DNA of 64,000 nucleotides, from the NCBI GenBank assembly GCA_944324465.1, contig CALUWI010000001.1, forward strand, positions 159,023 through 223,022, read 5' to 3'. The stretch is from an uncultured Mucispirillum sp. (GTDB taxonomy: Bacteria > Chrysiogenota > Deferribacteres > Deferribacterales > Mucispirillaceae). Below are positions 37,400-54,395 of the stretch, piece after piece; the first letter of the stretch is position 1, and each line of letters begins with the position of its first letter. Below the pieces are notes generated by a model, which saw only the letters and a list, made by a program, of their open reading frames with translations, did not search any database and was not told where the DNA came from. Position numbers and translations under genes: made by a program.

Positions 37400-37663
37400 A
37401 TGAAGATAAAAGTATATATACAGCCAAATTCTAAAAAAGCAGGTTATGCAGGTGTTTATGACGGACTGCCAAAATTAAAAATTACAGCACCACCTGTAGA
37501 TGGTGCTGCAAATGCAGAAATTATAAAAATATTTTCAAAACTTTTAAATATACCTAAATCTGAGATAGTAATATCTTCTGGTCAAGCTTCACGGCTTAAA
37601 ATATTAGATATAAATACAGATAAAAGCCATGAAGAAATAACTGCTTTGCTGGAAAAATTTTAG
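37400..37663 (+). CDS. DUF167 family protein
   Basis: 87 residues with AAGGAATAA before the ATG. Sequence pattern VYIQPNSKKAGYAG, PKLKITAPPVDGAANAEIIKIFSKLL and SEIVISSGQASRLKIL is characteristic of the YggU/DUF167 family, small conserved proteins of unknown role. It converges on the rhodanese gene, with the two stop codons overlapping by four bases. Confidence 0.9.
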   Translation: MKIKVYIQPNSKKAGYAGVYDGLPKLKITAPPVDGAANAEIIKIFSKLLNIPKSEIVISSGQASRLKILDINTDKSHEEITALLEKF

Positions 37664-37980
37664 CGTTCTATTTCACCATGATATCTGGAAATGCCACCCA
37701 TATCTACAATGTTTTCATATCCCATGTGTTTAAGCATTCTTGCTGCACCTGCACTTCTTGCTCCACTTAAACAGTAAACAAAAAAAGGTGTTGCTTTATC
37801 TTTATACTGCATAGAAACTTTGCTTATTTCATCAACTGGAATATTAACACTTTTAGGAATATGGCCGCCCTTATACTCAGAAACAGAGCGAACATCTAAT
37901 ATAACACTGCCTTGAATAGTTTTTGCTTTTGCAAGCTCTTCATTAATGTCTTTAAACTTAAACATATCAAAAAAACCCAT
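37660..37980 (-). CDS. Single-domain rhodanese-like sulfurtransferase
   Basis: 106 residues from the ATG at 37980, preferred over an in-frame TTG at 37992 because GGAG lies seven bases before it. The rhodanese fold is evident from VILDVRSVSEYKGGHIPKSVNIPVDE and the active loop YCLSGARS, with the persulfide-forming Cys in a CxxGxR context. No signal peptide, so cytosolic; it likely moves sulfane sulfur. It is distinct from the large exported rhodanese lipoprotein at 43758-45278. Confidence 0.9.
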   Translation of the reverse strand: MGFFDMFKFKDINEELAKAKTIQGSVILDVRSVSEYKGGHIPKSVNIPVDEISKVSMQYKDKATPFFVYCLSGARSAGAARMLKHMGYENIVDMGGISRYHGEIER

Positions 37981-38055
37981 TTTACTCTCCAAAACAACAC
38001 AATTTTGGTATTATTATAATAAAATTTAAAAAAAGCAAGAAATTTTTTATTATAC

Positions 38056-38083
38056 TTGACTTTTTTGCATATTTTTATATATT
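38056..38083 (+). promoter_or_regulatory. Strong promoter for the leader RNA of the FlaG-like gene
   Basis: TTGACT (38056-38061) and TATATT (38078-38083) separated by 16 bases. A transcript would start near 38090, over 420 bases upstream of the nearest plus-strand ORF. Confidence 0.55.
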
Positions 38084-38089
38084 TTAAAT

Positions 38090-38475
38090 TGTAGAGTTGT
38101 TTATGGTATTACAATAAGTAGGCCAGGGTATAATATTACCTTGGCCTTTTTTCGTAGTATTTTGGCTTTGGAGCGAGGGCCCTACTTAAACAATGATACT
38201 TTAGGTATATGGCTTAGATGGATTTATGCCTTGGCTGCACGGAAGCAGGCTAATACACTTTTTTAAGTGATGATGTCCTTGAATACAGGGAAGATTTAAG
38301 ACTATCTATGTCTAGGTGAACAACACCGGTCTTTATTAGCACCATACCTAAAAATTTTAGAGAAAAAATCTCAAAAAACACTTTATCTGCCTGTGCGCAA
38401 ATATAAAAGGCAGAAAAAGCATGGATGCACAAATGCGAATCAAGTCCATAATCAAAGGACAAATTTTTTGCATTA
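38090..38475 (+). ncRNA. Putative structured RNA or long 5' leader
   Basis: 532-base spacer without a credible ORF. It holds a hairpin AGGCCA..GGTA-TAATAT-TACC..TGGCCT followed by T6 (38122-38156), which would terminate early, then GC-richer segments. An alternative pairing joins AAGTAGG-CC (near 38114) with GGCCCTACTT (near 38187). Further, GTATT..GCTT (38158-38175) can pair with AAGC..AATAC (38246-38261), ahead of a T6 run. Mutually exclusive pairings suggest an attenuator/riboswitch-like leader or a small RNA such as 6S, but I could not match it to a known RNA family. Confidence 0.35.
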
Positions 38476-38512
38476 ATAAATAAGCATATCAGCTTATTAA
38501 AGGCGGTAGAAT

Positions 38513-38950
38513 ATGATAAACATTATGAGCGGACAAACCGCAGTAACATCTACGCCTAATAATGCTCCGCAAAAAAAGGATAAAACAAGCCAGTCAGCAC
38601 AAAACACTGCATCTGACAGTAATACAAGTGCAAAAAGCACTGTATCAAATAATAACAGTATGCAGGAAGATACAGCCATCTTTCAGGCTCAATCAGCTGA
38701 ACAGGCAGAAGGGAATAACCCAGATAAAACTGACTATCAAAAAGAAGCATTAGCTAAACTGGTAGATGATTTAAGAAAAGAGTATATTGAAAGAAATCAT
38801 TATATTGATGAAAATACTCAAATCTCAGTTTTGCAGATAGTCAATACAGAAACGGACCATGTTATTGGGCAGTATCCATCAGACCTTTATTTAAATTTAT
38901 TAACTAAGGTCAGGGAATCTCAAAAACAATTAGTAAATGAAACAATCTAA
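38513..38950 (+). CDS. flaG: FlaG-like flagellar protein
   Basis: 145 residues. The first 85 are low-complexity Ser/Thr/Gln/Asn-rich (TSTPNNAPQKKDKTSQSAQN), and the C-terminal 65 carry the FlaG core: KLVDDLRKEYIERNHYIDENTQISVLQIVNTETDHVIGQYPSDLYLNLL, close to the usual FxxdExtgxxvvkvvDxxTgeVIrqiPpeexl pattern. FlaG proteins affect flagellar filament length. The N-terminal tail is longer than usual. Monocistronic, bounded by a strong terminator. The name is by similarity. Confidence 0.7.
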   Translation: MINIMSGQTAVTSTPNNAPQKKDKTSQSAQNTASDSNTSAKSTVSNNNSMQEDTAIFQAQSAEQAEGNNPDKTDYQKEALAKLVDDLRKEYIERNHYIDENTQISVLQIVNTETDHVIGQYPSDLYLNLLTKVRESQKQLVNETI

Positions 38951-38964
38951 CTCGCTCCCTATTG

Positions 38965-38995
38965 CAGGGGCTTTTTGCCCCTGTTTATATTTTTA
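38965..38995 (+). terminator. Terminator after the FlaG-like gene
   Basis: CAGGGGC-TTTTT-GCCCCTG followed by a T-rich tail; 14 bases after the stop codon. Confidence 0.9.
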
Positions 38996-39083
38996 GATAA
39001 ATTAATTTAGATTCTTCGTTAAAAGCTCAGAATAGACATGATGAAAATTATTTTATTTATATAAAACTTTTCAAAGTTTTCCC

Positions 39084-40235
39084 TTATTTCTTTTCTGGCA
39101 CTGTTTTATTTATAAGTGCTTTTAGCTGGTCTAATTTTTCAAAATATTTCTGCAGATATTCTTTTGATTTTATATTTATTTTTTCATTATATTCCTGCCT
39201 TGTTACAAAGCGGGCATCATCTATTGAAAAACTCTCACTATTATAAAATGACTTTACAGCAAGTCCGTCTTTATCTGGGTATAATATTCTGTTTTCATCA
39301 CTTTCTAATAAAAATGCTTTTTCGTTACCATGACATGATGAGCATAAAACAGTTTCTTTTCTTACAGAGTGTGGATAAGTTACTTTCCACCTGTTTGCAA
39401 TCATTTTATTTTCCTGCCCTACTACTAAATCTCTGTATGTATTTGTAGTAAAAATAATTTTAGAAGGTTTTGCAGGTACATATTTTCCTGTTTTATTATC
39501 TATTACTAGGGGCGGTCTTTCATTTACACGCATAAAACTGCTTTTAAAATATTCATCACTGATTTGTGGCAGTTCTTTTACAAATTCTGCATAAGAGCTT
39601 TCTCTAAACCTTAAATAAAATGTACCAAGCTCCATAGGTACATAAGCTGCATGGCATGAAATACAGGCTACTTTATCATGACCTTTTATGCTGTGGTCTA
39701 TAATTTTTTTATCGTAAGTATGACATTCAAGGCAGTCTTTTGCTTTTGCTTTGCCCTGCATATTATTTTTTGTATGGCATGATGAGCACTGCATACCTGC
39801 ATCATAGTGAACATCTGTAAGCATTTTTAAGTAATATTCGCCGTCTTTCTCTATACCCCTTTTATATCTTTCATGGTCTTCCCTTATTCCAAGACCAGCA
39901 TATTCTATACCTGTATATGTATCTTTATGGCATGTAAGGCAGTCATCAACTTTTGGTTTTGATATATTTTTACCACTCCCTTTGTGGCAGTCCTGGCATT
40001 TTGTTATATGGCATGAATTATAGCAGTGTTTTTCTCCAAATTCGCCGTCAAACTGGCGGAATGTTTTATCTACAAAGGCTTTTTCTGACCTTTTGCCTGT
40101 CATTGTAATATCTTCAATGCTGCAATCTGTGTGGCAGTCTGCACATATCTGTTTTTCATTATATTCTGGGTGCTCTGCATAAACTGCACTAGCGAATAAG
40201 AGGCTTATGAATATCATCATTAAGTATTTTTTCAT
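39084..40235 (-). CDS. Periplasmic octahaem c-type cytochrome
   Basis: 383 residues with signal peptide MKKYLMMIFISLLFASAVYA. Haem-binding sites in order: CADCH, CYNSCH (a CX3CH variant), CQDCH, CLTCH, CSSCH, CLECH, CISCH and CSSCH, i.e. seven CXXCH plus one variant. Most lie in the first 210 residues and one near 300; a cytochrome-free C-terminal helix region (FVTRQEYNEKIN onward) follows. Likely a soluble or complex-bound electron carrier. It overlaps the upstream 12-haem gene by 47 bases, so both are made together. Last gene of the conduit-like operon. Confidence 0.88.
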   Translation of the reverse strand: MKKYLMMIFISLLFASAVYAEHPEYNEKQICADCHTDCSIEDITMTGKRSEKAFVDKTFRQFDGEFGEKHCYNSCHITKCQDCHKGSGKNISKPKVDDCLTCHKDTYTGIEYAGLGIREDHERYKRGIEKDGEYYLKMLTDVHYDAGMQCSSCHTKNNMQGKAKAKDCLECHTYDKKIIDHSIKGHDKVACISCHAAYVPMELGTFYLRFRESSYAEFVKELPQISDEYFKSSFMRVNERPPLVIDNKTGKYVPAKPSKIIFTTNTYRDLVVGQENKMIANRWKVTYPHSVRKETVLCSSCHGNEKAFLLESDENRILYPDKDGLAVKSFYNSESFSIDDARFVTRQEYNEKINIKSKEYLQKYFEKLDQLKALINKTVPEKK

Positions 40236-42045
40236 AGTCTATATCCTGCTGATAGTATTTACTGTCTTTTTCACTGTGGCATACAATACATTTCATTACA
40301 TCTACTGCATTTACTATTTCCTGCCTGCTTAATGGACTTGAGCCCTCGCGCACAATATCTGATTTTGATTTAAACTCTCCATTTTCTACTGCATATATAG
40401 AGTTCAGCGGCACTGGGCAGTTATCACACCTTATGGAAGAAGTTAATGTGCCATTATCTGCAGAAAAAAGCCCATCACCAAAGCCGTAAAAGAATAAAGT
40501 AGAGTGGCAGCTTTCACAGCTTACTGCTTTTTTGCCTGTATTATGACCATAAAATGGAGCATATTTCATCTGAGGTTTTCCTCTGAAATCTACCATTTTA
40601 TCATTTGACATCACATTACCATTTTCATCTATATGGGTTAAAAATGTTTGACATCCTGGAGTAACTGGGGCGATTTTGCCTTTCTGGTTATATGCTAAAG
40701 GAAAAGGATAAAATGTTCTTAAATCTTCTGTTTCTATAAAGAGCCCCTTAGTTTCTTCATTTTTCACAAAGTCATACATTGTTTCTGTTTCATTATATTC
40801 CACATGGCATCCGTAACACTGTATCACATTAGCAGAATGGCATGTGTAACATTCCATTTTATCATGACCTTGAATATTATGCTCCATAGTGCCTGTAATA
40901 ACTTTTACTTCCCTTTCTTTGCCTGTTCTTTTGCTCATTAATATTATCTTATTATCTTTTTCATATACATTAGAATAAGGTCTGCCTTTATCTGTAAGCA
41001 CCATTTTACTTCCATACTCTATTTTATCAATATATGATGAACCTTTTAAATATGGCACCATATTTTCCTTAACTGCTTTAGCTGTTTTTGGTTTTTCAGT
41101 ATATGAGCCATGGCAGCTTTCACAGCTTACTTCTATCTGCTCATACATATTTTCGTAATAGTAGCCATCCCCCATTATTTCCATAGTTGTGTGGCAGTCT
41201 ATACATTCCATACCTTTGGCATGGTGTATATCATCTTGAAAATGACGGGTATTTCTTAACCCGCTTGTAAGGTCAGGGCCTGGCACACCTTCTTTTAAAG
41301 GTACAAGTGCATTATTGCCGTCATACAGTCCTTTATAAGATAATGCAATTCTTCCGCTTCTATTGTGGCAGGCAAGACATACATTATCATCTGGCAGAGA
41401 TTTCATTTCATGGGTAACAGAATGCATGCTTCTGCCCTGCATAGATTTATCATTTCCAGAATATTCTCCAAAATCACCATAAGGGAAATGGCATGTAGAA
41501 CAGCCGGAAGAATGAACACCTTGATACCCCATATCTGCAGCCTGCCCAACATGACATGCTGAACAGAATTTTCTATACATATCTGCAGAAATTGTATCAT
41601 ATTCTGATATATTATCTATTGTAATAATACTACCGTCTTTGCCATATATTTTATCATTATCGTTTTGAGAATAAAGTTTCCCGTTTTCTTCGCCCCAGGC
41701 AGCAAGTGTGTTTTTAATGATACCAGTATTTGTAAGCATTAAAGAAGATGAAACCCTTTTTACTTCATATTCATGACATTTGCCGCATGTCTGCATCCAT
41801 ACTGATGGGTCTGATGGATTATTTTTTCCATACATATTTGCATGTGCCATATCTTTATCCATTGTAAGAGAGTTGCCACCGTGGCAGTCTGTACATGATA
41901 AATTATTGTGAGATGCTGAAACTGTTTCTATACCTTCATGGCATGAAATACATGATGATATTTCTTTATTATCATTAGTAAAAAGATAATAAATACATGC
42001 AAAAACAAAAAGTAAAAGTATTATTAAAAAAACAATCTTCTTCAT
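40189..42045 (-). CDS. Dodecahaem c-type cytochrome, membrane-anchored or lipoprotein
   Basis: 618 residues. The N-terminus is a hydrophobic anchor (IVFLIILLLFVFACIYYLF); its Cys is in a poor lipobox, so an uncleaved anchor is as likely. Twelve CXXCH sites: CISCH, CTDCH, CGKCH, CSACH, CSTCH, CLACH, CIDCH, CESCH, CYTCH, CYGCH, CESCH and CIVCH, plus one CDNCP (near 560) where a haem motif appears lost. A nonhaem insertion lies at about 330-400. It probably passes electrons between the periplasm and the outer-membrane porin encoded upstream. No match to nitrite or tetrathionate reductase types was evident (no CXXCK site). Confidence 0.88.
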   Translation of the reverse strand: MKKIVFLIILLLFVFACIYYLFTNDNKEISSCISCHEGIETVSASHNNLSCTDCHGGNSLTMDKDMAHANMYGKNNPSDPSVWMQTCGKCHEYEVKRVSSSLMLTNTGIIKNTLAAWGEENGKLYSQNDNDKIYGKDGSIITIDNISEYDTISADMYRKFCSACHVGQAADMGYQGVHSSGCSTCHFPYGDFGEYSGNDKSMQGRSMHSVTHEMKSLPDDNVCLACHNRSGRIALSYKGLYDGNNALVPLKEGVPGPDLTSGLRNTRHFQDDIHHAKGMECIDCHTTMEIMGDGYYYENMYEQIEVSCESCHGSYTEKPKTAKAVKENMVPYLKGSSYIDKIEYGSKMVLTDKGRPYSNVYEKDNKIILMSKRTGKEREVKVITGTMEHNIQGHDKMECYTCHSANVIQCYGCHVEYNETETMYDFVKNEETKGLFIETEDLRTFYPFPLAYNQKGKIAPVTPGCQTFLTHIDENGNVMSNDKMVDFRGKPQMKYAPFYGHNTGKKAVSCESCHSTLFFYGFGDGLFSADNGTLTSSIRCDNCPVPLNSIYAVENGEFKSKSDIVREGSSPLSRQEIVNAVDVMKCIVCHSEKDSKYYQQDIDYEKILNDDIHKPLIR

Positions 42046-42226
42046 AATTAAGTATATAATAAATTTATATTTTTTGCACTAATAATATAAAGTATTTTAT
42101 AAATTTTTATATGAATATTTGTTAATATTTTTATATAAGATTAATATACTTTTTTGATTTACTTAGAATGGATAATGTGTGTAACGGTAATAACAAGAAA
42201 ATAATTTATTTTTATAAAATAAATAA

Positions 42227-42245
42227 GGGGAAGCAGTGCTTCCCC
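42227..42245 (-). terminator. Hairpin between the small exported protein and the cytochromes
   Basis: Perfect 8-bp stem GGGGAAGC-AGT-GCTTCCCC followed on the minus strand by T-rich TTATTTATTTT. It would end or weaken transcription after the porin and small-protein genes, so cytochrome levels may be set separately. Confidence 0.75.
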
Positions 42246-42277
42246 CGAAAATATAAACATCTAGGAAATGCTGTATA

Positions 42278-42484
42278 TTAGCAGCCAGACATTCTTGGTT
42301 TTTTAGCTTTTTTAGCTTTTTCTGCATCAACAGAAACTGCATCACCAGCTTTAAATTTGTTACCTTTTACTTCAATAGTAACTTTGTCTCCGTCAACAGA
42401 AACTACTGTGCCAGATTGTGGAGCTGCGAAAGCAAAGTTAGCAGCTACGAAAGTTGTTAATACTACAAGTGCGATTTTTTTCAT
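42278..42484 (-). CDS. Small exported protein ending in Ser-Gly-Cys
   Basis: 68 residues behind AGAGGTG. Signal peptide MKKIALVVLTTFVAANFAFA, then a compact beta-type stretch (SGTVVSVDGDKVTIEVKGNKF) that looks like a small barrel or OB-like fold, then a basic tail AEKAKKAKKPRM closing in SGC. The mature form is only about 48 residues. The rhodanese lipoprotein two genes upstream also ends in a lone C-terminal Cys (AGC). No family recognised. Its position suggests a small subunit of the conduit complex. Confidence 0.75.
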   Translation of the reverse strand: MKKIALVVLTTFVAANFAFAAPQSGTVVSVDGDKVTIEVKGNKFKAGDAVSVDAEKAKKAKKPRMSGC

Positions 42485-42534
42485 AATTCACCTCTTATAT
42501 TATGGAGTTACTACTCCTTTATTTAGTTACCTTA

Positions 42535-43731
42535 CTAGAATCTAAACTGTGTATATAATTCTACAGTGTTAAAGTCTCTATAGTTAGGGTCATTAGGGTC
42601 TTGTTGAGCAAACATAGTTCTTGAATATTGTGCAGTAATTTTGATGTTTTGCCCGTCTATGTAATAGTTAAAGCCTGCACCAACCCAGCTAACATTTTGA
42701 TTATAGAATGCTTGGTTTTTGCTGTCAAGTCTTGCAAAATAGTAATTGTCATATCTTGCGAAGAATTGTAATGGTATGTTTGGAAGCATATAACCTATTT
42801 TTACATAGTAGCCTCTTTTTTGACCATTTTGACCATAAGATTCAGCAGAAGCAAATTCACCTTTATAAGCATCGCCCATATTAATGTCTAAGTATGCAGC
42901 AGATGCAGTGAATACACCTATATTTTCAAAGCCTTGTTCGTAGAAAATATCTACAGAATATGCAAAGTAGTCTTTTGCACCAGTTAAGTTAACTGCATCA
43001 GTATATACAACATTTGGTTCATACTGAACAGCACCACCGATAGTTAATACTTGTTTGTTACCTCTGTAAGTACCTTTCATACCGTAGTCAGTTTCTTTAT
43101 CTTCTAAGAAAGAGAACTGTAAACGGCCTGTATAACGGAACTGGCTCATATCAGATGCAAAAAGGTCTCCACTTTTACCAGTTTTACCTTCCATAACATC
43201 TACACGGTATTGTATCCAGCCATCTAAAATATTACCCCAAACAGCAACACCTATATCACGGCTTGTTTTAAATGTAGTGTTGATGAATAATGAGCGGTCT
43301 AAGTTTAATGGCTCAAAACATGCCTCTAAGTTTTCACGAGTAAGGTTGTGTTTAAATTTACCTAATTGAAATCTTAAGAAGTCAAATGGATCATATCTAA
43401 CTTGTGCATCTAACACATAGAAGTTTTGGTTTGGCTGGTCAGATATGCTTAATGGGTTAATGATTTTATTTTCAATATATTCTGTTTGGAAATAGAAGCT
43501 TAATACATCGTTATATGTACCAATAAACCCAAGTCTGTTTCTTCTAAAGTTTAAGTTTAAGGCAGCTTCGTTATTCATAACGCCTGTGCCTGTATCACGG
43601 TAAGTTAAACCAAACTGAGTATCATAAAATATTTTTAAATAAGCGTTTTCGCCAAGTTCAATAGGGTCAAAAGCATAAACAGAAGATGCAAAAACACTAA
43701 CCATAGATATAATTAACAGTAATTTTTTCAT
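42535..43731 (-). CDS. Outer-membrane porin of the conduit operon
   Basis: 398 residues. Signal peptide ending SSVYA, then alternating amphipathic strands with aromatic girdles (AYLKIFYDTQFGLTY, VLSFYFQTEYI, RFQLGKFKHNLTRENLE) and a terminal FRF, the outer-membrane insertion signal. It resembles phosphate-selective OprO/OprP-type or ExtI-type channels. In porin-cytochrome conduits the barrel carries cytochromes across the outer membrane; the neighbouring genes support that here. It could instead be a simple anion channel. It follows the rhodanese lipoprotein gene by 26 bases. Confidence 0.85.
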   Translation of the reverse strand: MKKLLLIISMVSVFASSVYAFDPIELGENAYLKIFYDTQFGLTYRDTGTGVMNNEAALNLNFRRNRLGFIGTYNDVLSFYFQTEYIENKIINPLSISDQPNQNFYVLDAQVRYDPFDFLRFQLGKFKHNLTRENLEACFEPLNLDRSLFINTTFKTSRDIGVAVWGNILDGWIQYRVDVMEGKTGKSGDLFASDMSQFRYTGRLQFSFLEDKETDYGMKGTYRGNKQVLTIGGAVQYEPNVVYTDAVNLTGAKDYFAYSVDIFYEQGFENIGVFTASAAYLDINMGDAYKGEFASAESYGQNGQKRGYYVKIGYMLPNIPLQFFARYDNYYFARLDSKNQAFYNQNVSWVGAGFNYYIDGQNIKITAQYSRTMFAQQDPNDPNYRDFNTVELYTQFRF

Positions 43732-43757
43732 AGTTATTCTCCTTGTCTACACTTTTA

Positions 43758-45278
43758 TTAGCAGCCTGCTGGAGCTGAACCGCCGCCAGAAGAAGCACCA
43801 CCGCTGTTACCACCTTCATCAGCAGAAAATTCACCAGCTTGATAGGCTTTGTCTTTTTTATTGATTTCTCTACCATCACCATTATAAGAGTTATCGTATG
43901 TAGCTGTTGAAGTTTTACCATTAAATGTTAAAAATTTAGTATATCTTGATGTATCCCATTTAATATTATTTTGAATACTATTTGGTGCAATATTTGCTAT
44001 ACCACCACCTGAATTTTTATAAAATGCTCCTTTTTCTGCATCATAAGTTACAAAATCAGTTGCTGGAGTAACAGGTGTTCCCTGCTGGTTAATAATAGTA
44101 GTTTCGCTACTTACTGCTCCATAGTAAGTAAGGTTAGTCCATTCTGACCAAGAACCATCATAAATAGCTGCATTAGTATATCCTAACACTTCTTTAAATA
44201 CAAACCAGTGTGGAGAAGTTGTTCTGCCTGTTTGACAGTGGAACATAATGCGTTTATTTTTATCTTCAGGTAAGAATGAAGCAGCAGTTGTTTCATCAGT
44301 AGTTAAGCCTTTGATAAGAGCTTGTAATTCTTCATCAGTCATATATCTGCCATCTGCTGCAATATACCGAGACCAGTTATTGTCATAACCATTAATTTCA
44401 TCACCAGATAATGCAAGCTGAGTTTCACCATTCATTCTTCCATCTATTAGATTTTTATTACCAATTACAAATGTTTGAGTAACACCATTAGATGCAACTT
44501 TTGTTTTTGCATTCATAGTAGATACCATTACAGCACTGCCTGTGCCATCTGCTTTTAAAGCACCAGCTTTAACATAATCTAATACTTCACCTATTGGAGC
44601 ACGGTATAAATCCATTTTGCCGCCAGGAAGTTCTTTAACAGAAAATGTTGAAGGTGTAGGTTTATCTGTTCTAAATGGAGCTTTATACTGGTCTATAAAT
44701 GTTTGACCACCATTTGCTGTTGCAAAAGCACCAAAGAAATATTTATCTGTTCCGTGAAGCACTTTAACATGTTTATTAGAAAAACCCCAGTATTTAAGTG
44801 TCCAAAAAGCTCTTGCAAGCATTTGGTTATCATGTCCATAAGAAGTAAGGACTACTAAAGTATTCATATCAATACCAAATTCTCTTAAGAAAGCATTAAT
44901 TTTAGCACCTGAAGCAACCATTGCACTATCTGTGATAGGACCATCACTTCTTGCTTCCATGAAGTAATCTTCCTGATCAAAGAAGTATGCACCTTTAATT
45001 GAACCATAATCTGATGGCATTGAATTTTGTGCAGTTACATATAATATTAAGACTTTTTTGCCATCTGGTGTTACATAGCCAGCATCAATATAACTTTTTA
45101 ATACATCAGCTTCAATTAATGCAGAGCGTGCAACTCCATCTTCAGCATAATAATCGGCAGCCATTTTTTCTCTTTCTTCTTTTGGGTCATCATAGCCACA
45201 TGCAATGAAAGAAACAGCAAGCACTGCCAGCAGCATATATTTAATTAATGCCGCAGGTTTAGAAATGAATTTTTTCAT
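43758..45278 (-). CDS. Rhodanese-domain lipoprotein
   Basis: 506 residues from the ATG at 45278, which has GGAGGGG upstream (the longer frame to 45323 has none). Lipobox FIAC places a lipidated Cys near residue 27. Two rhodanese-like halves: the first (about 55-190, VLILYVTAQNSMPSDYGSIKGAYFF) lacks an active Cys; the second (about 330-400) has MFHCQTGRTTSPHWFVF, a CxxGRT persulfide loop, and YDGSWSEW. The C-terminus is a Gly/Ser linker (GGNSGGASSGGGSAPAGC) with a free Cys at the end. First gene of the operon, like the ExtH-type lipoproteins that precede porin and cytochrome genes in Geobacter. Confidence 0.85.
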   Translation of the reverse strand: MKKFISKPAALIKYMLLAVLAVSFIACGYDDPKEEREKMAADYYAEDGVARSALIEADVLKSYIDAGYVTPDGKKVLILYVTAQNSMPSDYGSIKGAYFFDQEDYFMEARSDGPITDSAMVASGAKINAFLREFGIDMNTLVVLTSYGHDNQMLARAFWTLKYWGFSNKHVKVLHGTDKYFFGAFATANGGQTFIDQYKAPFRTDKPTPSTFSVKELPGGKMDLYRAPIGEVLDYVKAGALKADGTGSAVMVSTMNAKTKVASNGVTQTFVIGNKNLIDGRMNGETQLALSGDEINGYDNNWSRYIAADGRYMTDEELQALIKGLTTDETTAASFLPEDKNKRIMFHCQTGRTTSPHWFVFKEVLGYTNAAIYDGSWSEWTNLTYYGAVSSETTIINQQGTPVTPATDFVTYDAEKGAFYKNSGGGIANIAPNSIQNNIKWDTSRYTKFLTFNGKTSTATYDNSYNGDGREINKKDKAYQAGEFSADEGGNSGGASSGGGSAPAGC

Positions 45279-45766
45279 AACCCCTCCATATTTTGTAGAA
45301 AGTGGATAAATGTTGTAGACCATCTATCTTTTCATTTAATTTATTCCTTTTTTAAATAAAAATCAAGATAAAAAATAACACATTATTATAATTTTTTAAT
45401 CATAGTTTTTTTGTAGAAATATCTTTAAATTTTACGGATAATACAGGTATTTTCTACCCTTTAACTATGACTTAACCAATTTTATATCCTACTATTTTTA
45501 TATCATTTAAAAACTTAATACTACTATTAATATAATGCTGTTTTATTTTAAATATTATGATTTTATCAATTTTATGTGTAAATTTTTAAAATTTAGCATT
45601 ACATATATATTTATATTATTGATTTTTCTTTGAATGAAAATAAAATATAACTATTCAGAATAATAATATATTATTTATAACCTTATTTTACATAAAGAAT
45701 TGTTAGAAAATATTATATGAACATAAAGGAAAAACCTAGTTTAATACTATAAATTATACAGTATTA
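45279..45766. other. AT-rich spacer, nothing coding
   Basis: 488 bases with no ORF I can support and no tRNA-like or strong hairpin structure. It must carry the promoter of the rhodanese-porin-cytochrome operon; several T-rich -10-like hexamers occur, none decisive. Confidence 0.5.
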
Positions 45767-46774
45767 TCAAAAAGATATTTCCATAAATAAATGACCAAAG
45801 GTATGGCCGTAAGGCTGAGTAGTATATTCTTTTGTATAAAGTGTCCATGTATAACCTACCCTTACACCATAATAAGAAACTACTATGCCGCAGGCTGCAT
45901 CCCACCTTAAAATATTTGTATTATATCCTAAATCGCTTGTGCTGTTATTGCCTGTTACAAACAGATTATAAAGCACAACTCTTGGTCCGCCGCCTGCAAA
46001 AAGATATACAGATAATTTATCGCTATGCACTGGGGCAGCATCTGCTAAAGTATTAATTTTCTGCACACCAAAGTCATTATCCAGATTATAACCAATACGC
46101 AAAGTGCCGTATGCACCTAAATGAGTATCAGCATTGCCAAGAGCCACATCAAGAGTGCCTAATATATCCATAGATATAGAGTTAGTTTTAAATATATATG
46201 CTCTTCCAGTCCACTGGTAATATGGGTTTACAATAAATTCTGTACCTATCTGATTATCCCAGCCGTAAAAAATACCTTTATCAAATATAGTATGTATAAA
46301 TGTCTGAGCCTCTTTACCTAATGCATAGGGACCTGTAATGCCAATTTTTATACCTATATGCTCCAGTGTGTTTGCAGTTCTGTTATATATTCCTGCATTA
46401 AAATAAAGAAATCCGCCATATGGATGTTCATTTTCAGGCACATAAGTGCCTGTGTAGCTTGGAGTGTACATTTCCTGATTAATGCTTAAATGAAATCTTG
46501 TTAAGTGGGGTTTATTATAATTTACAACGGATACATTTTTTGCCCAGCTCATTTTATTATCTTCTGTAAAATAATCATATTCTTTGGAAGTATATCCATA
46601 GCGGACGCCGTTTGTATAGTTCCTGTCTGTATGAATAAAGCTGATTTTATCATTTTCCCACATACCGTATATTGCATGTTTTTTATAAGGAACAAGCTCA
46701 GATGCTTCTGCATTTATAGAAAAAATAGAGATAAAAAAGACATTTATAATACAAATTATTACATATTTATACAT
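45767..46774 (-). CDS. lpxR: LpxR-like lipid A 3'-O-deacylase (DUF2219)
   Basis: 335 residues with signal peptide ending INAEA. The mature barrel begins YGMWENDKISFIHTDRNYTNGVRYGYTS, matching the family's N-terminal active-site region (Asn/Asp, then TDRxYTNG). EHIGIKIGITGPYALG followed by QTFIH provides the His expected in the catalytic pair. It ends in a terminal Phe. Such outer-membrane enzymes remove the 3'-acyloxyacyl chain from lipid A and so reduce TLR4 recognition. Activity is inferred from motifs. It stands alone between the conduit operon and the first MITE copy. Confidence 0.82.
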   Translation of the reverse strand: MYKYVIICIINVFFISIFSINAEASELVPYKKHAIYGMWENDKISFIHTDRNYTNGVRYGYTSKEYDYFTEDNKMSWAKNVSVVNYNKPHLTRFHLSINQEMYTPSYTGTYVPENEHPYGGFLYFNAGIYNRTANTLEHIGIKIGITGPYALGKEAQTFIHTIFDKGIFYGWDNQIGTEFIVNPYYQWTGRAYIFKTNSISMDILGTLDVALGNADTHLGAYGTLRIGYNLDNDFGVQKINTLADAAPVHSDKLSVYLFAGGGPRVVLYNLFVTGNNSTSDLGYNTNILRWDAACGIVVSYYGVRVGYTWTLYTKEYTTQPYGHTFGHLFMEISF

Positions 46775-46833
46775 AGACTACACTCTTAATAATATTATTT
46801 AATTGTAAAAGCATATTTTTTATTTGTAAAGGA

Positions 46834-47285
46834 TAAACATATTTGCCTTAACCCTATTTTTTAAAACTGTAATAAAAATCAATAATTTTCCAATAAAATA
46901 GATGTTTTATATTTTTTAATAATATGTATGTATTTGCACAATATTTTACACTATCTCTACCGCCGTAAATCTCATCAAGCAAAATTTTTGTTATTTCATT
47001 CCTTATGCTCCGAATTGTATAATCATTCACAATTTTTTCTTCATTGCTGCAGCAACTCGCTAACGCTCAGACAATCTGACAGCAAAACATTTCGAAAAAA
47101 TTGCTCATATACAATTAAGTCGCAAAGATAATGAAATAACTTGGGGTATCTCTTAAAAGCAGAAATGGGAACATATAATATATTAAGTTTAAATTCCATT
47201 TTTTAATTTCTTATTTATTTTACCTTTATTATTATATAGTTAAGAATATCGTACAAAAAAAATGGAGGTAATGCAGTAAACATAT
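46834..47285. repeat. 9-bp target duplication around MITE copy 1
   Basis: TAAACATAT at 46834-46842 is repeated exactly at 47277-47285, directly abutting both ends of the element. Confidence 0.8.
46843..47276. mobile_element. MITE-like element, copy 1 (434 bp)
   Basis: Non-coding element with imperfect terminal inverted repeats (left TTGCCTTAACCCTATTTTTT; right, reversed, CTGCATTACCTCCATTTTTT). It aligns along its whole length with copy 2. The core 46990-47140 is bounded by the inverted pair GTTATTTCATT / AATGAAATAAC and contains nested stems AATTGTATA / TATACAATT and AATTTTTTC / GAAAAAATT. No transposase gene is present; it would need one in trans. Confidence 0.8.
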
Positions 47286-47410
47286 ATACAAAACATTATT
47301 AAATGTGCTGATAATTGTAACATCACCTAAAAAAAGTGGGAATGAAAAATTTTTCTTTAATTTAGAATAATAATAAAAATTTAATGCTTAATATTAATCA
47401 TAATAAATTA

Positions 47411-47440
47411 GAGCGGGTAAAAACCCGCCCTTTATATTTT
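47411..47440 (-). terminator. Hairpin at the end of the formate dehydrogenase operon
   Basis: GCGGGT-TTTT-ACCCGC stem, extendable by adjacent pairs, just after the cytochrome b gene. The minus-strand T-run is weak (TCTAATTTATT). Confidence 0.6.
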
Positions 47441-48071
47441 ATATTTCGTTTTTCTCTTTTAATTCGTCATACCATCTGCCATGGTGAGCTTTTGCATAGC
47501 TTTCAGGCACTACACCTTTTGTCATACCCATAAAAGATGGACGGCTTGCAGGATGACCTACACTTAAATAAATATGGCCGATAATTACAGCAACCATTAC
47601 TGCCATTCCTGCATCATGTACAGGATATGCCCACCTTACAACTTCTACTGGAAATAACTCTTTAAACCACATAATAAAGCCAGTTATAACCATAGTTACT
47701 GCACCTAAAATTGTAAGAACTGAATTTAATTTCTGACCGCCGTTAAAAAAGTCCTGTTTTGGAACATTTTTAGCCTTGCCTATTAATTCCAGCGGGAACA
47801 TTGCTAAAAATTTAAAATCATAGCTTTTCCAGCTTAAGATATTTTTAGTCCACTGCATAAATCCTTTTCTATCCATTAATATCATAAATGGTGTTGGAAG
47901 TAAAAAAGTTACTGCAAACACTCTATGCACTATCTGCAAAAAGTCAGGCAGTTTTACACCTAAAAATAATGGAAGCCCAGTTAATACAAGCATAATAAAG
48001 CTGATTGCATTAGTCCAGTGAGCTATAACTATAAATTTGCTGAATCGTTTTACATATTTTTCATTACTCAT
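47439..48071 (-). CDS. Formate dehydrogenase cytochrome b subunit
   Basis: 210 residues from the ATG at 48071, backed by GGAGGTGATG; it starts inside the last codons of the Fe-S subunit gene. Four membrane helices (about 15-40, 52-72, 110-135, 148-172) with His in HWTNAISFIMLVLTG, VHRVFAVTF and GHIYLSVGH as b-haem ligands. It anchors the dehydrogenase in the inner membrane and passes electrons to quinone. The Fdn/Fdo gamma family match is clear. Confidence 0.9.
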   Translation of the reverse strand: MSNEKYVKRFSKFIVIAHWTNAISFIMLVLTGLPLFLGVKLPDFLQIVHRVFAVTFLLPTPFMILMDRKGFMQWTKNILSWKSYDFKFLAMFPLELIGKAKNVPKQDFFNGGQKLNSVLTILGAVTMVITGFIMWFKELFPVEVVRWAYPVHDAGMAVMVAVIIGHIYLSVGHPASRPSFMGMTKGVVPESYAKAHHGRWYDELKEKNEI

Positions 48072-48888
48072 GGTCATCACCTCCATGTTTTGAGCCGCCT
48101 GTTACAGTATTTACAACTGCAGCACCAGCAACTGCCACAACTGCAGCACCCATTAATATTTTGCCGGCAGGCTGTATTTTATCTTTCCAAACACTTAAAG
48201 AAGGTGCAAGCTGCGGCTCATCAGGCAGACCATAAACAGATGGTCTATAAGGAAGAACATACATCATCGCTCCACCTTTAATAGAGTTATCTGTTTCCAC
48301 ATTATATGTGCAGGCATCAGGATATTTTTCTTTTAAAACTGCAAGCCTTTCATTAGCAATTTTCACCATTTCTTCACGAGTGCCAAAAAGGATTGCATCA
48401 GCTGTGCAGGTTTTTGCACATGACGGCATATATTTTCTGTCATAGCCATTTTCAATATATTTTTCCACCCTGTCTATACATAAGTTGCATTTAGTAGATT
48501 TTTTAGTTTCTTTATCTACATGAGGCACACCAAAAGTGCAGTTTATTTCACAGTATCCGCATCCTATACATTTATCTATATTATGAGAAACTATACCAGT
48601 GTCTTCTTTTTGAAGTGCATTTGTTGGGCAGCCAAGAACACAGCCTGCAATACCACAGTGCATACACTGGAATTTAAGGAAATCCCATCTTACTTTACCA
48701 TCTGCCATAGTTTCTTTCATACGGATTAAAGTATATGTTTTACTGCTTAAATCCTTATGTGACTGATAATCTCCATCAAAAGGGGTTTTATCAGCAGGCA
48801 GATTTTTCCACTGTTTGCAGGCTACTGAGCAGCCTCTGCATGCAGAGCATTTCTCCACATCATGCAGCATAGCAATTTCTACGGCCAT
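48064..48888 (-). CDS. Formate dehydrogenase Fe-S subunit
   Basis: 274 residues with four 4Fe-4S binding groups: CSACRGCSVACKQWKNLP, CMHCGIAGCVLGCPTNAL, CIGCGYCEINCTFGVPHV and the split CNLC..CAKTC group. A C-terminal membrane helix (GKILMGAAVVAVAGAAVVNTV, about 240-262) anchors it, as in FdnH. Electron wire between the molybdenum subunit and cytochrome b. GGAGGATAAT precedes the ATG; 16 bases after the cysteine desulfurase gene. Confidence 0.92.
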   Translation of the reverse strand: MAVEIAMLHDVEKCSACRGCSVACKQWKNLPADKTPFDGDYQSHKDLSSKTYTLIRMKETMADGKVRWDFLKFQCMHCGIAGCVLGCPTNALQKEDTGIVSHNIDKCIGCGYCEINCTFGVPHVDKETKKSTKCNLCIDRVEKYIENGYDRKYMPSCAKTCTADAILFGTREEMVKIANERLAVLKEKYPDACTYNVETDNSIKGGAMMYVLPYRPSVYGLPDEPQLAPSLSVWKDKIQPAGKILMGAAVVAVAGAAVVNTVTGGSKHGGDDHE

Positions 48889-48904
48889 ATTATCCTCCTA
48901 AATT

Positions 48905-50065
48905 TTAATACACCGGCACATCAACATGTGCTATACGGCGTATTGCATTGCAAAATGTATCAATATCTTTATCTGTTGTAAAATATCCCGGGCTAAGTCT
49001 TACTGTTCCCATTGGGAAAGTTCCTAAAAACTGATGAGTTAATGGTGAGCACTGCAGCCCAGACCTGGTCTGGATATCATAATTTTGGTTTAATACTGCA
49101 CCAACATCTTCTGCCTCCCACCCTAAAACATTAAAAGAAAGTACTGCAGTTCTTGCCATATCAGGTGCTGGACCATAAAGTTTTATATTATCAAAGTGAG
49201 ATAAATATTCCCACAGCCTTTCAATGTGATAAAGCTCTCTTTCAGCTATTTTTTTTATGCCCGTTTCATTAATAAATTTCAGCCCTTCTCCCATAGAGAG
49301 AATACCTGGAACATTATGTGTACCTGCTTCAAATGCTTCCGGCCAGCTTACTGGCTGATACTCTGACTGAGAGTCAAACCCTGTGCCGCCCTCCCTGAAA
49401 GGACGCAGTTTAAATATTCTTTCTCCCAGTACTAATATTCCTGTGCCCTGCAGACCATACAGGCTTTTATGTCCTGCTGCTGCAAGCATATCTATAGGCA
49501 TATTACGCATATCAATAGGCACTATTCCTGCAGTCTGTGCCGCATCTAAAAGCAGAAAGCCGCCTTTTTCTCTGACTATCTGCCCTAATGTTTCCACAGG
49601 CTGCAATGCTCCAGTTACATTTGAGCTGTGACATACTACTGCCAGCTTTGTTTTATCAGTTACCAGCTTTTTAAATTCATCAACTATTACATATCCGTAT
49701 TCATCACATGGGGCAATATCTAAGCTTATAATACCGTCCCTTGCCATTGCCTTTAAGGGCCTTGATACTGAATTATGCTCTGCCATAGTTATAACTACAT
49801 GGTCGCCCTGATTTAAGAAACCTTTTATCGCCATGTTTAAAGCATCTGTAGCACTGTAAGTAAATATTATACGGAAATCTTCCAGCAGATTAAAAAAGTC
49901 TATAAAACTTTTTCTCACACCCTGTACTCCACTTAATGCTTTTGCAGCTGTATTATGGCTGCCTCTGCCGGGAGTACCAGTGCCTTCTGTTACTATTTCT
50001 ATAACTTTCTGACTTACATTATCAGGCTTTGGAAAGCTGGTTGCAGCATTATCTAAGTATATCAT
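48905..50065 (-). CDS. Cysteine desulfurase inside the formate dehydrogenase operon
   Basis: 386 residues, fold-type I PLP enzyme: MIYLDNAATSFPKP, TYSATDALNMAI, VVCHSSNVTGALQPV, the Schiff-base Lys in AAAGHKSLYGLQGTG (about 195-209) and the catalytic Cys in RSGLQCSPLTHQFLG (about 330). It belongs with the CsdA/SufS-like group often annotated as cysteine desulfurase family protein. Placed between fdhE and the Fe-S subunit, it probably supplies sulfur for the sulfido ligand of the molybdenum cofactor or for Fe-S assembly; this is inference. A selenocysteine lyase role is less likely because the dehydrogenase uses Cys. Confidence 0.85.
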   Translation of the reverse strand: MIYLDNAATSFPKPDNVSQKVIEIVTEGTGTPGRGSHNTAAKALSGVQGVRKSFIDFFNLLEDFRIIFTYSATDALNMAIKGFLNQGDHVVITMAEHNSVSRPLKAMARDGIISLDIAPCDEYGYVIVDEFKKLVTDKTKLAVVCHSSNVTGALQPVETLGQIVREKGGFLLLDAAQTAGIVPIDMRNMPIDMLAAAGHKSLYGLQGTGILVLGERIFKLRPFREGGTGFDSQSEYQPVSWPEAFEAGTHNVPGILSMGEGLKFINETGIKKIAERELYHIERLWEYLSHFDNIKLYGPAPDMARTAVLSFNVLGWEAEDVGAVLNQNYDIQTRSGLQCSPLTHQFLGTFPMGTVRLSPGYFTTDKDIDTFCNAIRRIAHVDVPVY

Positions 50066-50067
50066 AT

Positions 50068-50916
50068 TTATGGTTTTACAAGGCTTCCTTTTGAAGTAAA
50101 GCCTGTATCCTCCATTAGTATATCAAGATGAATAGACGCCCAGCCTTCTTTGCCTGCACTGTTATTATCTTCGCCAATATATGTTTTTAAGTAACTGTTA
50201 CAATTATGACATAAGTCTATACGCATATCAGGCTCATCTTCGCTGTCTTTTATACTCATCTTTTTCTGGTCAAGGTTATCACAGTATGGGCAGCCTATTC
50301 GCTTATAAACCCATTCTGTACCACAGTGGTCACAGTGCAGAAAACGCTGTCTGCCTCTTTTAGTATGCTTAAAAAATGCAGTAGATGCATGGTTACCGCA
50401 TACAGGGCATATTCCTTTCTGCCAGCCATTTTCACTGATAAATTCTTCAATTTCTGCCTTTACACCGCTTAATGCTTTTTTAATGGAAACCCATGCAAAA
50501 TATTCAAGATATTCCTTTGCAGCACCTGTTTTTTCAGCCATTTCTTTAAGAAATGTATCATTGCCTTCAAGCACTGCTTTTATTATTTTTATGCAGTTAT
50601 CTTCAGATAACTTACTTAAATCTTTCAAAACATTCTGCATTATTTCAGGCAGTTCTGCAATAAGGCTTTCACTGCCTTTTTTACATATTTCATAAAATAC
50701 TGCACCAGCTTTATTATCTATGCCTAAATCAAGGTCTGTTAAAAGTAATGGTGTACCTTGAATAAACTGCTCTTTAATATGCTTAATATCTGGCATATCA
50801 GCACTTACATTAAAGTTTTCAAGCATTTTTTCAAAAGCTGTATTTAAAGCAGCAATATCTTTTAAATAAGGGTGGCTTTTTACCCATTTTTCTACTGCTT
50901 TTAAAGTATTTTCCAT
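50068..50916 (-). CDS. fdhE: Formate dehydrogenase accessory protein FdhE
   Basis: 282 residues from the ATG at 50916, with GGAG upstream; an in-frame extension to 50955 overlaps the catalytic gene. The C-terminal half has four CXXC pairs, CPVC, CDHC, CPYC and CHNC, of the rubredoxin-like FdhE fold, after a helical N-terminal domain. FdhE acts as a chaperone in the maturation of Tat-exported formate dehydrogenases. Gene order catalytic subunit-fdhE is tight (5 bases). Confidence 0.9.
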   Translation of the reverse strand: MENTLKAVEKWVKSHPYLKDIAALNTAFEKMLENFNVSADMPDIKHIKEQFIQGTPLLLTDLDLGIDNKAGAVFYEICKKGSESLIAELPEIMQNVLKDLSKLSEDNCIKIIKAVLEGNDTFLKEMAEKTGAAKEYLEYFAWVSIKKALSGVKAEIEEFISENGWQKGICPVCGNHASTAFFKHTKRGRQRFLHCDHCGTEWVYKRIGCPYCDNLDQKKMSIKDSEDEPDMRIDLCHNCNSYLKTYIGEDNNSAGKEGWASIHLDILMEDTGFTSKGSLVKP

Positions 50917-50921
50917 TATAT

Positions 50922-53900
50922 CTATGCTCCTGCTTTCACTACATTTACAAGGCACGCTTTAGTTTCCTGTATCCATGTATTTGGGTCGCCTGCATCAATA
51001 GTTAAAAGGTTTGTACTTGCAGCACTGCTTAAGCCTTTAAAGCCCCAGTTATATGGCATCCATACAACTGTACATTCTTCGCCGTTAATATTTAATGTAT
51101 GGATACGATTTGTTACCATTGCTTTTACTTCAATCTCACCCCTTGCTGAGCTTACTTTTACTTTTTCGCCGTTTTTGATACCAAGTTTTTCAGCTAATGC
51201 AACAGGCATTTCTATAAATGTTTCTTTTACAAGTTCATTAAGCCATGGCACATTTCTTGTATAAGCACCAGAACACCAGTGCTCAGAAACTGCTGATGTA
51301 CAAAGCACATAAGGAAAATCTTTTTTATCACCTATTTCTTGGAAGCCTTTTACTCGCGGATAAATTAAGCATGGGTTAGATGCTACATTTTCATGGAGTA
51401 TATTTTTAGTAGGGCTTTCAACAGGCTCATAAAATTCTGGGAACGGGCCGTCACTTGTTACATAAGATACATCTCGCGGAAGTGTGCCGCCTGCTTCTGG
51501 GTCTGCATATACACCGCCAAAAAGACGACCTATACCTTCTGCTGACATACGGAAAGGTTTCTGACCGTTTGCTGTATCTGGGCCGTCTGTTGCAGCTGGA
51601 ACATCAGGAATATCATAACCAGTCCATTTTTTAGCATTTTTATCCCACCAGATAAGTTTAATATTTTCATCATATGGGTTGCCGTTTTTATCGCATGATG
51701 CCCTGTTATAAAGAATATGAATATTGCCTGGCCAAGTCCATGCATATTTTGGGAATATACCAAAGTTGCCCGGGTCTGTTTGGAAATCTTTTCTTAATGT
51801 CTGGTTTTCTCCATTTGCATACACACCAGCATATACCCAGCAGCCTGTAGATGTTGAGCCATCTGCCTGTATTTCGCCTATACCGTTTAAAAGTTTACCA
51901 GTTTTAATATTATATCCGTTAATTTCTTTTAATACTGTATCTGACCTGTTATCTGCAGGGTAATTCCAGTTAGCAAGTTTAAAGATTTTATCTTTTTCTT
52001 CTGTAGAAGCAGAATATTTTTCTCTAATTTTTTGGAAAAGCATATCTATAATTTCTATATCTGGTTTAGCTTCACCTAAAGGCTCTAAACCTGCATTTCT
52101 CCACTGAACAAGACGGCTTGAGTTTATTAATGTACCTTCTTTTTCTAAAAATGATGCTGCAGGTAATAAAATAACTTCTGTATCTATATTTACAGGGTCA
52201 ACACCTTCCCTTTTCTGCCAAAAGCATGCTGTTTCTGTCATAAATGGGTCTGCCACAACAAGCATTTCAAGTTTTTCAAGCCCAGCCTGCACTATATTTA
52301 AGTTAGGGCTTGTAACAAGCGGATTCTGCCCCATAATATATAAAAATTTCATCTGCTTTTCTAAAGCAGTTTCAAATATTCTGTATATTGAATAATTTTG
52401 GTTTGTATTGATTTTTGGCATTAATGGATAACAGAAATCATTTTCTGCATTTGCATTTTCTCCAAACCATGATTTCATTAAGTTAACCATAAATTTTCTG
52501 CGGAAAGTACCGGAATCTTTTGTCCACTCATCAAGAGTCTGCTGTTTATGGTTAGGTGTACTTAAATAGCCAGGAAAATAGTTAAAAAGTACTGCAAAGT
52601 CTGTAGAGCCTTGAACATTTGGTTCACCGCGAAGTGCATTAATACCAGAACCAGGTTTACCTACATTGCCAAGTAAAAACTGCATAACTGTAAAACTTCG
52701 GATATTTTGAACACCTACTGTATGCTGAGTCATACCAAGAGCATACATAACTGTGCCAGGGCGGTTATTTATCATAACTTCTGCAATTTTTTTAATATCA
52801 TCTGCTGGAATACCAGTAATGCTTGATGCAGTTTGCAAGTCATAGCGTTTATAAAACTCACGCATTTTCATCATAACACTGTCTGGGTGAGTTAAATCTG
52901 CAAACTTAGGTTTGCCGGAAGCATCTAACTGATAAGCCCATTTTTTCTTATTATAAGAATGTGTTTCTTCATTATAGCCGGAAAATAAGCCGTCATTAAA
53001 ATCATAATCTTTAGATACAAGCACTGCTGCATTTGTATGAGTTAAAAGATAATCTTTATCATAGCTTTCTGTTTCAAGAATATAGTTAATAACTGCACCA
53101 AGAAATGCAATATCTGTTCCAGGACGGATTTGTGCATGAATATCTGCTAATTTTGATGTTCTAGTGTATCGTGGGTCTACATGAATAACAACAGCACCTT
53201 GTGCTTTTGCTCTCATAATCCATTTAGCACTCATTGGGTGGTTTTCAGCAGCATTTGAGCCTTCAATTAATATTGCTTTTGCATTTTTTAAATCCTGCCA
53301 GCTGTTTGTCATTGCACCTCTGCCAAAAGCTGCAGTTAATGCAGGCACTGTTGATGAGTGGCAAAGACGAGCCTGATGCTCTAAAAATGACACACCTAAC
53401 ATTCTAGTCATTTTAGTCATAAGGTAACATTCTTCATTATGAACCTGAGCACCGCCAACAAAACTTAATGCATCACATCTGTTTACATTATATGTTTTGC
53501 CATTATCTGTTTCTTGAGCTATCCAGTTATCATCACGAACCTGTTTAATTTTTGATGCGATTTTATCAATGGCCTCATCCCAAGAGATATCAACCCATCT
53601 ATCGCTTTTTGGAGCTCTGTATTTAGGTGTAAGGTTTCTGCTGTCTGAATTTGGAATAACAGACATAGATGCCCCTTTACTGCAAAGACCACCTTCATTG
53701 ACAATATGGTCAGAATCGCCTTCCAGGTTAATCATTTTACCCTCTTTTACATAACCAACCATACCGCATCCACAGGCACAGAATGTACAAATAGATGTGT
53801 ATTCTTTTGCATCATCCAGCTTAAAGCCTTTTACTGCTGCTTTTACAGAGGGTATATTAAAACCAAAGCCAGCCAGAGAAAGTCCTGCCCCTGCTGCTGT

Positions 53901-53933
53901 AGTTTTAAGTAATGTTCTTCTGCTTACTTCCAA
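50922..53933 (-). CDS. fdnG: Tat-exported formate dehydrogenase, catalytic molybdopterin subunit (Cys type)
   Basis: About 1003 residues. I place the start at the TTG at 53933, because GGGAGGTG lies six bases upstream; the longer frame (to 53948) would place this site inside the gene. Twin-arginine signal EVSRRTLLKTTAAGAGLSL, then the 4Fe-4S site CTFCACGCGMVGYVK..GGLCSKGASM (about 48-90). The active-site segment ARLCHSSTVPALTAAFGRGAMTN has Cys (TGC) where E. coli FdnG has selenocysteine. Later NPLVTSPNLN and the dinucleotide-binding C-terminal domain (VLCTSAVSEHWCSGAYTRNVPWL) are complete. Oxidises formate in the periplasm. Confidence 0.93.
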   Translation of the reverse strand: MEVSRRTLLKTTAAGAGLSLAGFGFNIPSVKAAVKGFKLDDAKEYTSICTFCACGCGMVGYVKEGKMINLEGDSDHIVNEGGLCSKGASMSVIPNSDSRNLTPKYRAPKSDRWVDISWDEAIDKIASKIKQVRDDNWIAQETDNGKTYNVNRCDALSFVGGAQVHNEECYLMTKMTRMLGVSFLEHQARLCHSSTVPALTAAFGRGAMTNSWQDLKNAKAILIEGSNAAENHPMSAKWIMRAKAQGAVVIHVDPRYTRTSKLADIHAQIRPGTDIAFLGAVINYILETESYDKDYLLTHTNAAVLVSKDYDFNDGLFSGYNEETHSYNKKKWAYQLDASGKPKFADLTHPDSVMMKMREFYKRYDLQTASSITGIPADDIKKIAEVMINNRPGTVMYALGMTQHTVGVQNIRSFTVMQFLLGNVGKPGSGINALRGEPNVQGSTDFAVLFNYFPGYLSTPNHKQQTLDEWTKDSGTFRRKFMVNLMKSWFGENANAENDFCYPLMPKINTNQNYSIYRIFETALEKQMKFLYIMGQNPLVTSPNLNIVQAGLEKLEMLVVADPFMTETACFWQKREGVDPVNIDTEVILLPAASFLEKEGTLINSSRLVQWRNAGLEPLGEAKPDIEIIDMLFQKIREKYSASTEEKDKIFKLANWNYPADNRSDTVLKEINGYNIKTGKLLNGIGEIQADGSTSTGCWVYAGVYANGENQTLRKDFQTDPGNFGIFPKYAWTWPGNIHILYNRASCDKNGNPYDENIKLIWWDKNAKKWTGYDIPDVPAATDGPDTANGQKPFRMSAEGIGRLFGGVYADPEAGGTLPRDVSYVTSDGPFPEFYEPVESPTKNILHENVASNPCLIYPRVKGFQEIGDKKDFPYVLCTSAVSEHWCSGAYTRNVPWLNELVKETFIEMPVALAEKLGIKNGEKVKVSSARGEIEVKAMVTNRIHTLNINGEECTVVWMPYNWGFKGLSSAASTNLLTIDAGDPNTWIQETKACLVNVVKAGA

Positions 53934-54395
53934 AGTAGCACCTCCCAATATTACTTGGAGAAAGAATGCTTAGCATATTTAACTTCATAAGGAATAGAAA
54001 ATCTGACTGCTGCATAAATATACAAAAACAATCTTTTTCCTCTTATTAAATTATCACATTTTTTTTATTTTTACAAGAGATAAAATTATTAATAAATTAT
54101 CGCACTAAATTATATATAATTATTTATCATCTTATTTATCAATATGTTATAAATAAAATTATCTTACAATACATTTTCATTTATAGAATTTTTTAAACAT
54201 TATATAACAATGTTTTATACATAATAATAAGTAATAATTTTTTTAAATATACACATTTTAATAATTTATCTGTATTTTCTATAGACATAAATAAGGAACA
54301 ATATTGAATTTAAATAAAAAATTAAAAATAATATATTTTCTATAAAAAAATTTTAAGATAATAGTATAATATATTTCTTCAAAATAAAACATTAT
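53934..54395. other. Upstream region of the formate dehydrogenase operon
   Basis: 462 very AT-rich bases without a supportable ORF. It must hold the operon promoter; no FNR-type or sigma-54 site was recognised with confidence. Confidence 0.45.

Follow-up and report, generated by a model that had tools for sequence, protein, structure and literature searches.

A two-locus ext system in an uncultured Mucispirillum and a possible cysteine relay at its outer-membrane porin

Five adjacent minus-strand genes of an uncultured Mucispirillum sp. encode a rhodanese, an outer-membrane barrel, a small exported protein and two multihaem cytochromes, and the question they raise is what such a set moves across the outer membrane. 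The related extHIJKLMNOPQS cluster of Geobacter sulfurreducens (GSU2940-GSU2930; PMC5877670, PMC6148476) is counted as an electron conduit despite an H-L unit without a surface cytochrome and a porin mutant that fails on selenite and tellurite. We focused on the five genes and their relatives in other genomes. The window is the whole 64,000-nucleotide stretch analysed, and its coordinates are used throughout unless another locus is named.

The ext locus and its transcription units

Open reading frames were called mechanically, and fetched loci were annotated by phmmer matches to the Mucispirillum proteins. Based on NCBIfam profiles, the transcription order in the window is ExtH-I-J-M-N, all on the minus strand. 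The first gene (43758..45278) encodes an ExtH-like two-domain rhodanese lipoprotein of 506 aa (NF040901, 157 bits, cut-off 200), followed by the outer-membrane porin ExtI of 398 aa (42535..43731; NF040900, 461 bits, cut-off 150) and the small exported protein ExtJ of 68 aa (42278..42484; NF040942, 59.4 bits, cut-off 52.5). The last two genes encode the dodecahaem cytochrome ExtM, 618 aa with 12 CxxCH motifs (40189..42045; NF040943, 968 bits, cut-off 800), and the multihaem cytochrome ExtN, 383 aa with seven CxxCH and one CxxxCH (39084..40235; NF040967, 346 bits, cut-off 200). The curated cut-off was passed by all but ExtH, a protein that varies widely among species (PMC6148476) and that here aligns, in the expected place, to positions 12-430 of the 430 in its model. 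Judged by these profile scores, the ext-family matches of the five genes are far beyond chance.

A first-pass annotation, made from the sequence itself, had described five consecutive leftward genes akin to the ext cluster, with a 12-haem and an 8-haem cytochrome, and these descriptions agree with the profiles, the eighth haem counting the CxxxCH site. Its guess of a gut-associated Deferribacterota was also a good one, as the closest named relatives of ExtM are from uncultured Mucispirillum (96% identity) and Candidatus Mucispirillum faecigallinarum (86%). The gene order extHIJKL that it cited holds for H-I-J only, the cytochromes being ExtM and ExtN; their identity as ExtK or ExtL was ruled out by the curated models. 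ExtKL, a pentahaem (seleno)protein that belongs to the published Geobacter extHIJKL unit (PMC6148476), had no match to its model (NF040886) in this genome and none above the cut-off across 51 genomes of the phylum.

ExtO was another candidate identity for the protein encoded at 39084-40235, which scored 348 bits with NF040968, a model named for the iron-sulfur subunit ExtO. It was rejected, and NF040968 seems to be mislabelled, because its 416 positions match the multihaem ExtN and a Rieske ExtO has ~130 residues. The ExtN proteins of Mucispirillaceae are missing the two N-terminal haem sites of their 10-haem relatives and have one CxxxCH site.

The genes for ExtH, ExtI and ExtJ are closely packed and those for ExtM and ExtN overlap. 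Between ExtJ and ExtM is a terminator-like hairpin (42226..42246, minus strand) with a 9-pair stem and then a T-rich tail, which also folds in an RNA model and whose stem is kept in two congeners. Given this conserved hairpin, H-I-J and M-N are probably two separate transcription units, and the single operon of the first-pass annotation thus stands as five adjacent genes and probably not as one transcript. No RNA families were found in positions 38000-54000 of the window. A 12/12 match to the sigma-70 consensus promoter (TTGACA-17-TATAAT) is located inside ExtI, upstream of ExtJ (42700-42728, minus strand), and could allow excess production of ExtJ.

The quinol-side genes are at a second locus

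The quinol-side genes O-P-Q-S, with which the Geobacter cluster goes on (PMC5877670), are not in the window cluster but on another contig (C11, about 77.5-85.5 kb), where a second ExtH gene (ExtH2) is divergent from a run encoding a molybdoenzyme, an FeS protein, a cytochrome b, a Rieske protein, ExtP, ExtQ and ExtS, with a TorD-like gene beyond ExtH2. ExtS scored 228 bits (cut-off 100), ExtP 221 (cut-off 290) and ExtQ 137 (cut-off 150), and the Rieske protein occupies the ExtO position. For the molybdoenzyme, the best model was PhsA with 277 bits against a cut-off of 694, and the nearest solved chain was 2vpw (176 bits). The enzyme, of the Phs/DMSO-reductase family, is encoded at 11293-13884 of the fetched C11 locus (L010). 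In M. schaedleri, an uncharacterised reductase (AYGZv1_260003/4) is reportedly upregulated in colitis (PMC5285517); the C11 molybdoenzyme might be this reductase, what is common to both being a broad superfamily.

Compared with the Geobacter cluster, the order of H, I, J, M and N is the same and O, P, Q and S are present in the genome. The Mucispirillum system differs in lacking ExtKL, in having its genes in two unlinked loci, in the Psr/Phs-like molybdoenzyme and second ExtH that join O-P-Q-S, and in an ExtN with 8 instead of 10 haems. Several other Deferribacterota have a single run of H-I-J-M-N-molybdoenzyme-FeS-NrfD-O-P-S, with a molybdoenzyme that closely resembles Thermus PsrA (484 bits), and another genus (G021-G023) has a similar two-way split of the ext genes. 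All seven of the Mucispirillum genomes examined have retained the second locus. Of 51 genomes, 26 have both ExtM and ExtS and 22 have neither (Fisher p 4e-11, overstated by shared ancestry). The retention of both halves together after their separation argues for one pathway.

ExtH and ExtI are a removable front end

Of the fetched loci, 49 extend at least 8 kb upstream of ExtM. What precedes ExtM there is an ExtH-I module, which may include ExtK, or a Psr/Phs-type molybdoenzyme, or the two together; five loci have none of these. Clusters of ExtM and OPQS without any ExtHI exist, and some molybdoenzyme modules also encode a cytochrome of the octahaem tetrathionate reductase family together with a rhodanese. 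Four congeners (G042-G044 and G041, the last with its genome in a single contig) have J, M, N and the second locus but neither ExtH nor ExtI next to ExtJ, and ExtI was not found anywhere in these genomes. Their loci (L046, L054, L055 and L059) show a clean absence of both genes between LpxR and ExtJ. As G041 is the sister of the window lineage in the ExtM tree (support 0.97), ExtH-ExtI was probably lost twice within Mucispirillum. The porin and its rhodanese are a removable front end rather than the core, since they were probably lost while J-M-N and OPQS persist.

Conserved cysteines of the three non-haem proteins

ExtH has two rhodanese domains, recognised by profiles and by fold matches to 1uar and others, and no redox cofactor motif. 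Only three of its cysteines are conserved: the lipobox Cys27 (codon 45198-45200), the catalytic Cys348 (44235-44237), which is invariant in the alignment, and Cys506 (43761-43763), which is the last residue. The lipobox-type Cys27 and the two recognised and modelled domains fit the lipidated two-half rhodanese of the first reading. The glycine-rich tail carrying Cys506 (residues 488-506) is disordered in the single-chain model. A C-terminal cysteine was found in 42 of the 50 distinct ExtH homologues, and the eight without it are second-locus paralogues of Mucispirillaceae.

The predicted single-chain model of ExtI has 16 membrane strands (pLDDT 83.8, pTM 0.82). The sole cysteine of the ExtI in the window, Cys138 (codon 43318-43320; residue 137 of the modelled sequence, from which Met1 is absent), falls within a 32-residue loop after strand 5, which by strand order in the model corresponds to porin loop 3; its position in the pore is read from this order. 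This loop-3 cysteine is kept in all 45 distinct ExtI homologues, and the 20 residues flanking it are the most conserved stretch of the protein. Jahan et al. mention the single cysteine of Geobacter ExtI but treat it simply as a feature common to outer-membrane proteins (PMC5877670).

In ExtJ, the only cysteine is again the last residue, Cys68 (codon 42281-42283), and Gly-Cys is the C-terminus of all 25 distinct homologues, most of which have no other cysteine. As a background, a C-terminal Cys was found in 8 of the 1067 ORFs from the fetched loci, and a C-terminal Gly-Cys in 3; because the loci share descent, these cysteine counts are not independent events. A small signal-peptide-like protein with a Gly-Cys end is encoded in 34 of 39 molybdoenzyme loci, and some of these proteins have no clear relation to ExtJ. 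The sampled loci are from Deferribacterota, Desulfuromonadota, Myxococcales, Eisenbacteria and Vicinamibacteria. In Geobacter relatives, the molybdoenzyme modules encode a pair of small exported proteins with the C-termini FKKTAGC and KGKKEVSGC (271-591 and 7817-8056 of L166, and similar loci), and a lysine-rich protein with a fixed Gly-Cys end had no good family match.

What is new here is that the three non-haem ext proteins have cysteines in common at strategic positions. Open-access literature searches combining C-terminal cysteine with rhodanese or Geobacter, or with porin or persulfide, returned no paper. With four defined positions in three proteins, conserved over several phyla, these cysteines offer a test by mutation of the puzzle posed by the Geobacter cluster.

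A possible relay of chalcogen cargo

Because the three non-haem proteins have conserved and strategically placed cysteines, we propose that they form a thiol relay. The broader proposal is an ext system in two loci, in which the cysteines of ExtH, ExtI and ExtJ relay a sulfur, selenium or tellurium cargo whose reduction is driven by menaquinol; we favour it tentatively, as a reading that falls somewhat short of probable. That ExtH-ExtI-ExtJ form an outer-membrane chalcogen relay, which would supply periplasmic respiration with sulfane sulfur or selenium taken from outside, is a more doubtful proposition. Both build on the gene families, locus structure, co-occurrence, conserved cysteines and porin-type predicted fold described here, whereas the cargo and the way it travels, each step of the relay, the route of the electrons and the membrane side of ExtH are our inference.

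In the proposed relay, Cys348 of ExtH would load sulfane sulfur (from thiosulfate or polysulfide) or selenium/tellurium and pass it to Cys506 at the flexible C-terminus. A selenium-substituted rhodanese was reportedly obtained from selenite and glutathione by Ogasawara et al. in 2001 (cited in PMC5877670). The anion-type porin ExtI would let the cargo through, with the pore-loop Cys138 as a relay point, and ExtJ would receive it in the periplasm on its terminal Cys68. Electrons from menaquinol may flow through ExtP/Q/O (cytochrome b and Rieske) and ExtS to ExtM and ExtN, and/or through the molybdoenzyme, and would reduce and release the cargo. The terminal cysteine of ExtJ is retained in congeners without ExtH and ExtI, and therefore the three thiols need not form one chain.

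Two known systems resemble the relay, by analogy only. SoxY carries sulfur on the cysteine of a C-terminal GGCGG (PMC6067878), and as in SoxYZ the putative sulfur-carrying cysteine is near a glycine-rich C-terminus; there is no homology to SoxY, however, the ext cysteine is at the very C-terminus, and the ext set includes an outer-membrane porin. A rhodanese beside a Psr/Phs-type molybdoenzyme is likewise reminiscent of Psr with its rhodanese-type sulfur donor Sud. The Geobacter extI mutant formed Se(0) and Te(0) at 30% and 25% of the wild type, respectively, and its reduction of Fe(III) citrate was not significantly affected (PMC5877670). Chalcogen oxyanions as acceptors are the part of the first-pass proposal on function that survives best with these data. 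Counting against the relay, a Geobacter strain deleted for extHIJKL reduced Fe(III) citrate at 66% of the wild-type level, and oxides of Fe(III) and Mn(IV) could still be reduced by a strain with extHIJKL as its only conduit cluster (PMC6148476). If true, the relay would be a way of crossing the outer membrane distinct from both a haem conduit and a passive porin, and would show a way to respire chalcogens that are extracellular or toxic; for a bacterium of the gut mucus, the relay could tie respiration to sulfur compounds derived from the host.

The fold of ExtI and alternative readings

The closest PDB folds to the ExtI model were OprP and OprO, followed by general porins, and sequence searches found no convincing solved relatives of ExtI or ExtM. 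ExtI is thus similar to the Pseudomonas anion porins in its predicted 16-strand fold, though a modelled likeness of this kind is no proof of anion transport. It differs from them in that the sequences are not detectably related (15% identity when aligned by fold), in its invariant loop-3 cysteine, and in always being beside ExtH in complete loci. ExtI could be a plain anion porin admitting selenite, tellurite, thiosulfate or similar for reduction by ExtM/N or the molybdoenzyme, the cysteines having structural or other roles. The fold matches point this way, and Jahan et al. favour a selenite-selective channel (PMC5877670). We consider it unlikely, however, as it leaves unexplained why ExtI always has a surface-type rhodanese as its partner, why ExtH and ExtJ end in cysteine and why the pore-loop cysteine is invariant, and as cells that had lost extI became more sensitive to the oxyanions rather than less (PMC5877670).

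In a true electron conduit, ExtM or ExtN would dock in or under ExtI and pass electrons to ExtH or to the outside. As in MtrCAB and Pcc conduits, an outer-membrane barrel gene is beside multihaem cytochrome genes, here for 12 and 8 haems in the same cluster. Unlike in these systems, the barrel is porin-sized (16 strands, 398 aa) and a rhodanese replaces the adjacent surface lipoprotein cytochrome. The barrel of MtrB has 26 strands. MtrB was not among the best 50 PDB fold matches of the ExtI model, and by analogy with known porins a 16-strand pore should not house a multihaem cytochrome. No outer-surface multihaem lipoprotein cytochrome is adjacent to the barrel at the locus, ExtM having at most a degenerate lipobox, and ExtH lacks a redox cofactor motif. 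Although Geobacter ext has been described as a putative conduit and shows partial Fe/Mn phenotypes (PMC6148476), we find this reading improbable for Mucispirillum. The first-pass annotation had spoken of a complete conduit, which is not supported here, and had held that an anion-porin barrel would speak against it; the barrel is OprP-like in its model and best folds, the quinol half is on another contig, and the four congeners without barrel and rhodanese keep the cytochromes.

Least probable of all, the Gly-Cys ends would be a C-terminal processing or anchoring signal instead of a cargo thiol, which would predict the sharing of this end by apparently unrelated proteins of the same clusters, as is seen, but no hydrophobic segment precedes the terminal cysteine, ExtH already has an N-terminal lipobox, and the loop cysteine of ExtI would be left unexplained.

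Genes neighbouring the ext locus

Directly upstream of ExtH is a gene for an LpxR-family outer-membrane protein (45767-46774, minus strand; PF09982, 237 bits), which adjoins the cluster in congeners too; LpxR is a lipid A deacylase. Further upstream is a formate dehydrogenase operon (47439-53948, minus strand) that includes FdhE and, at 48905-50065, a gene resembling cysteine desulfurase. Its catalytic subunit has the motif ARLCHSS, the cysteine of which is at the position of selenocysteine in E. coli FdnG. On the other side of the cluster, a separate single-domain rhodanese without an obvious signal peptide is encoded nearby at 37660-37992 (minus strand; PF00581, 64 bits).
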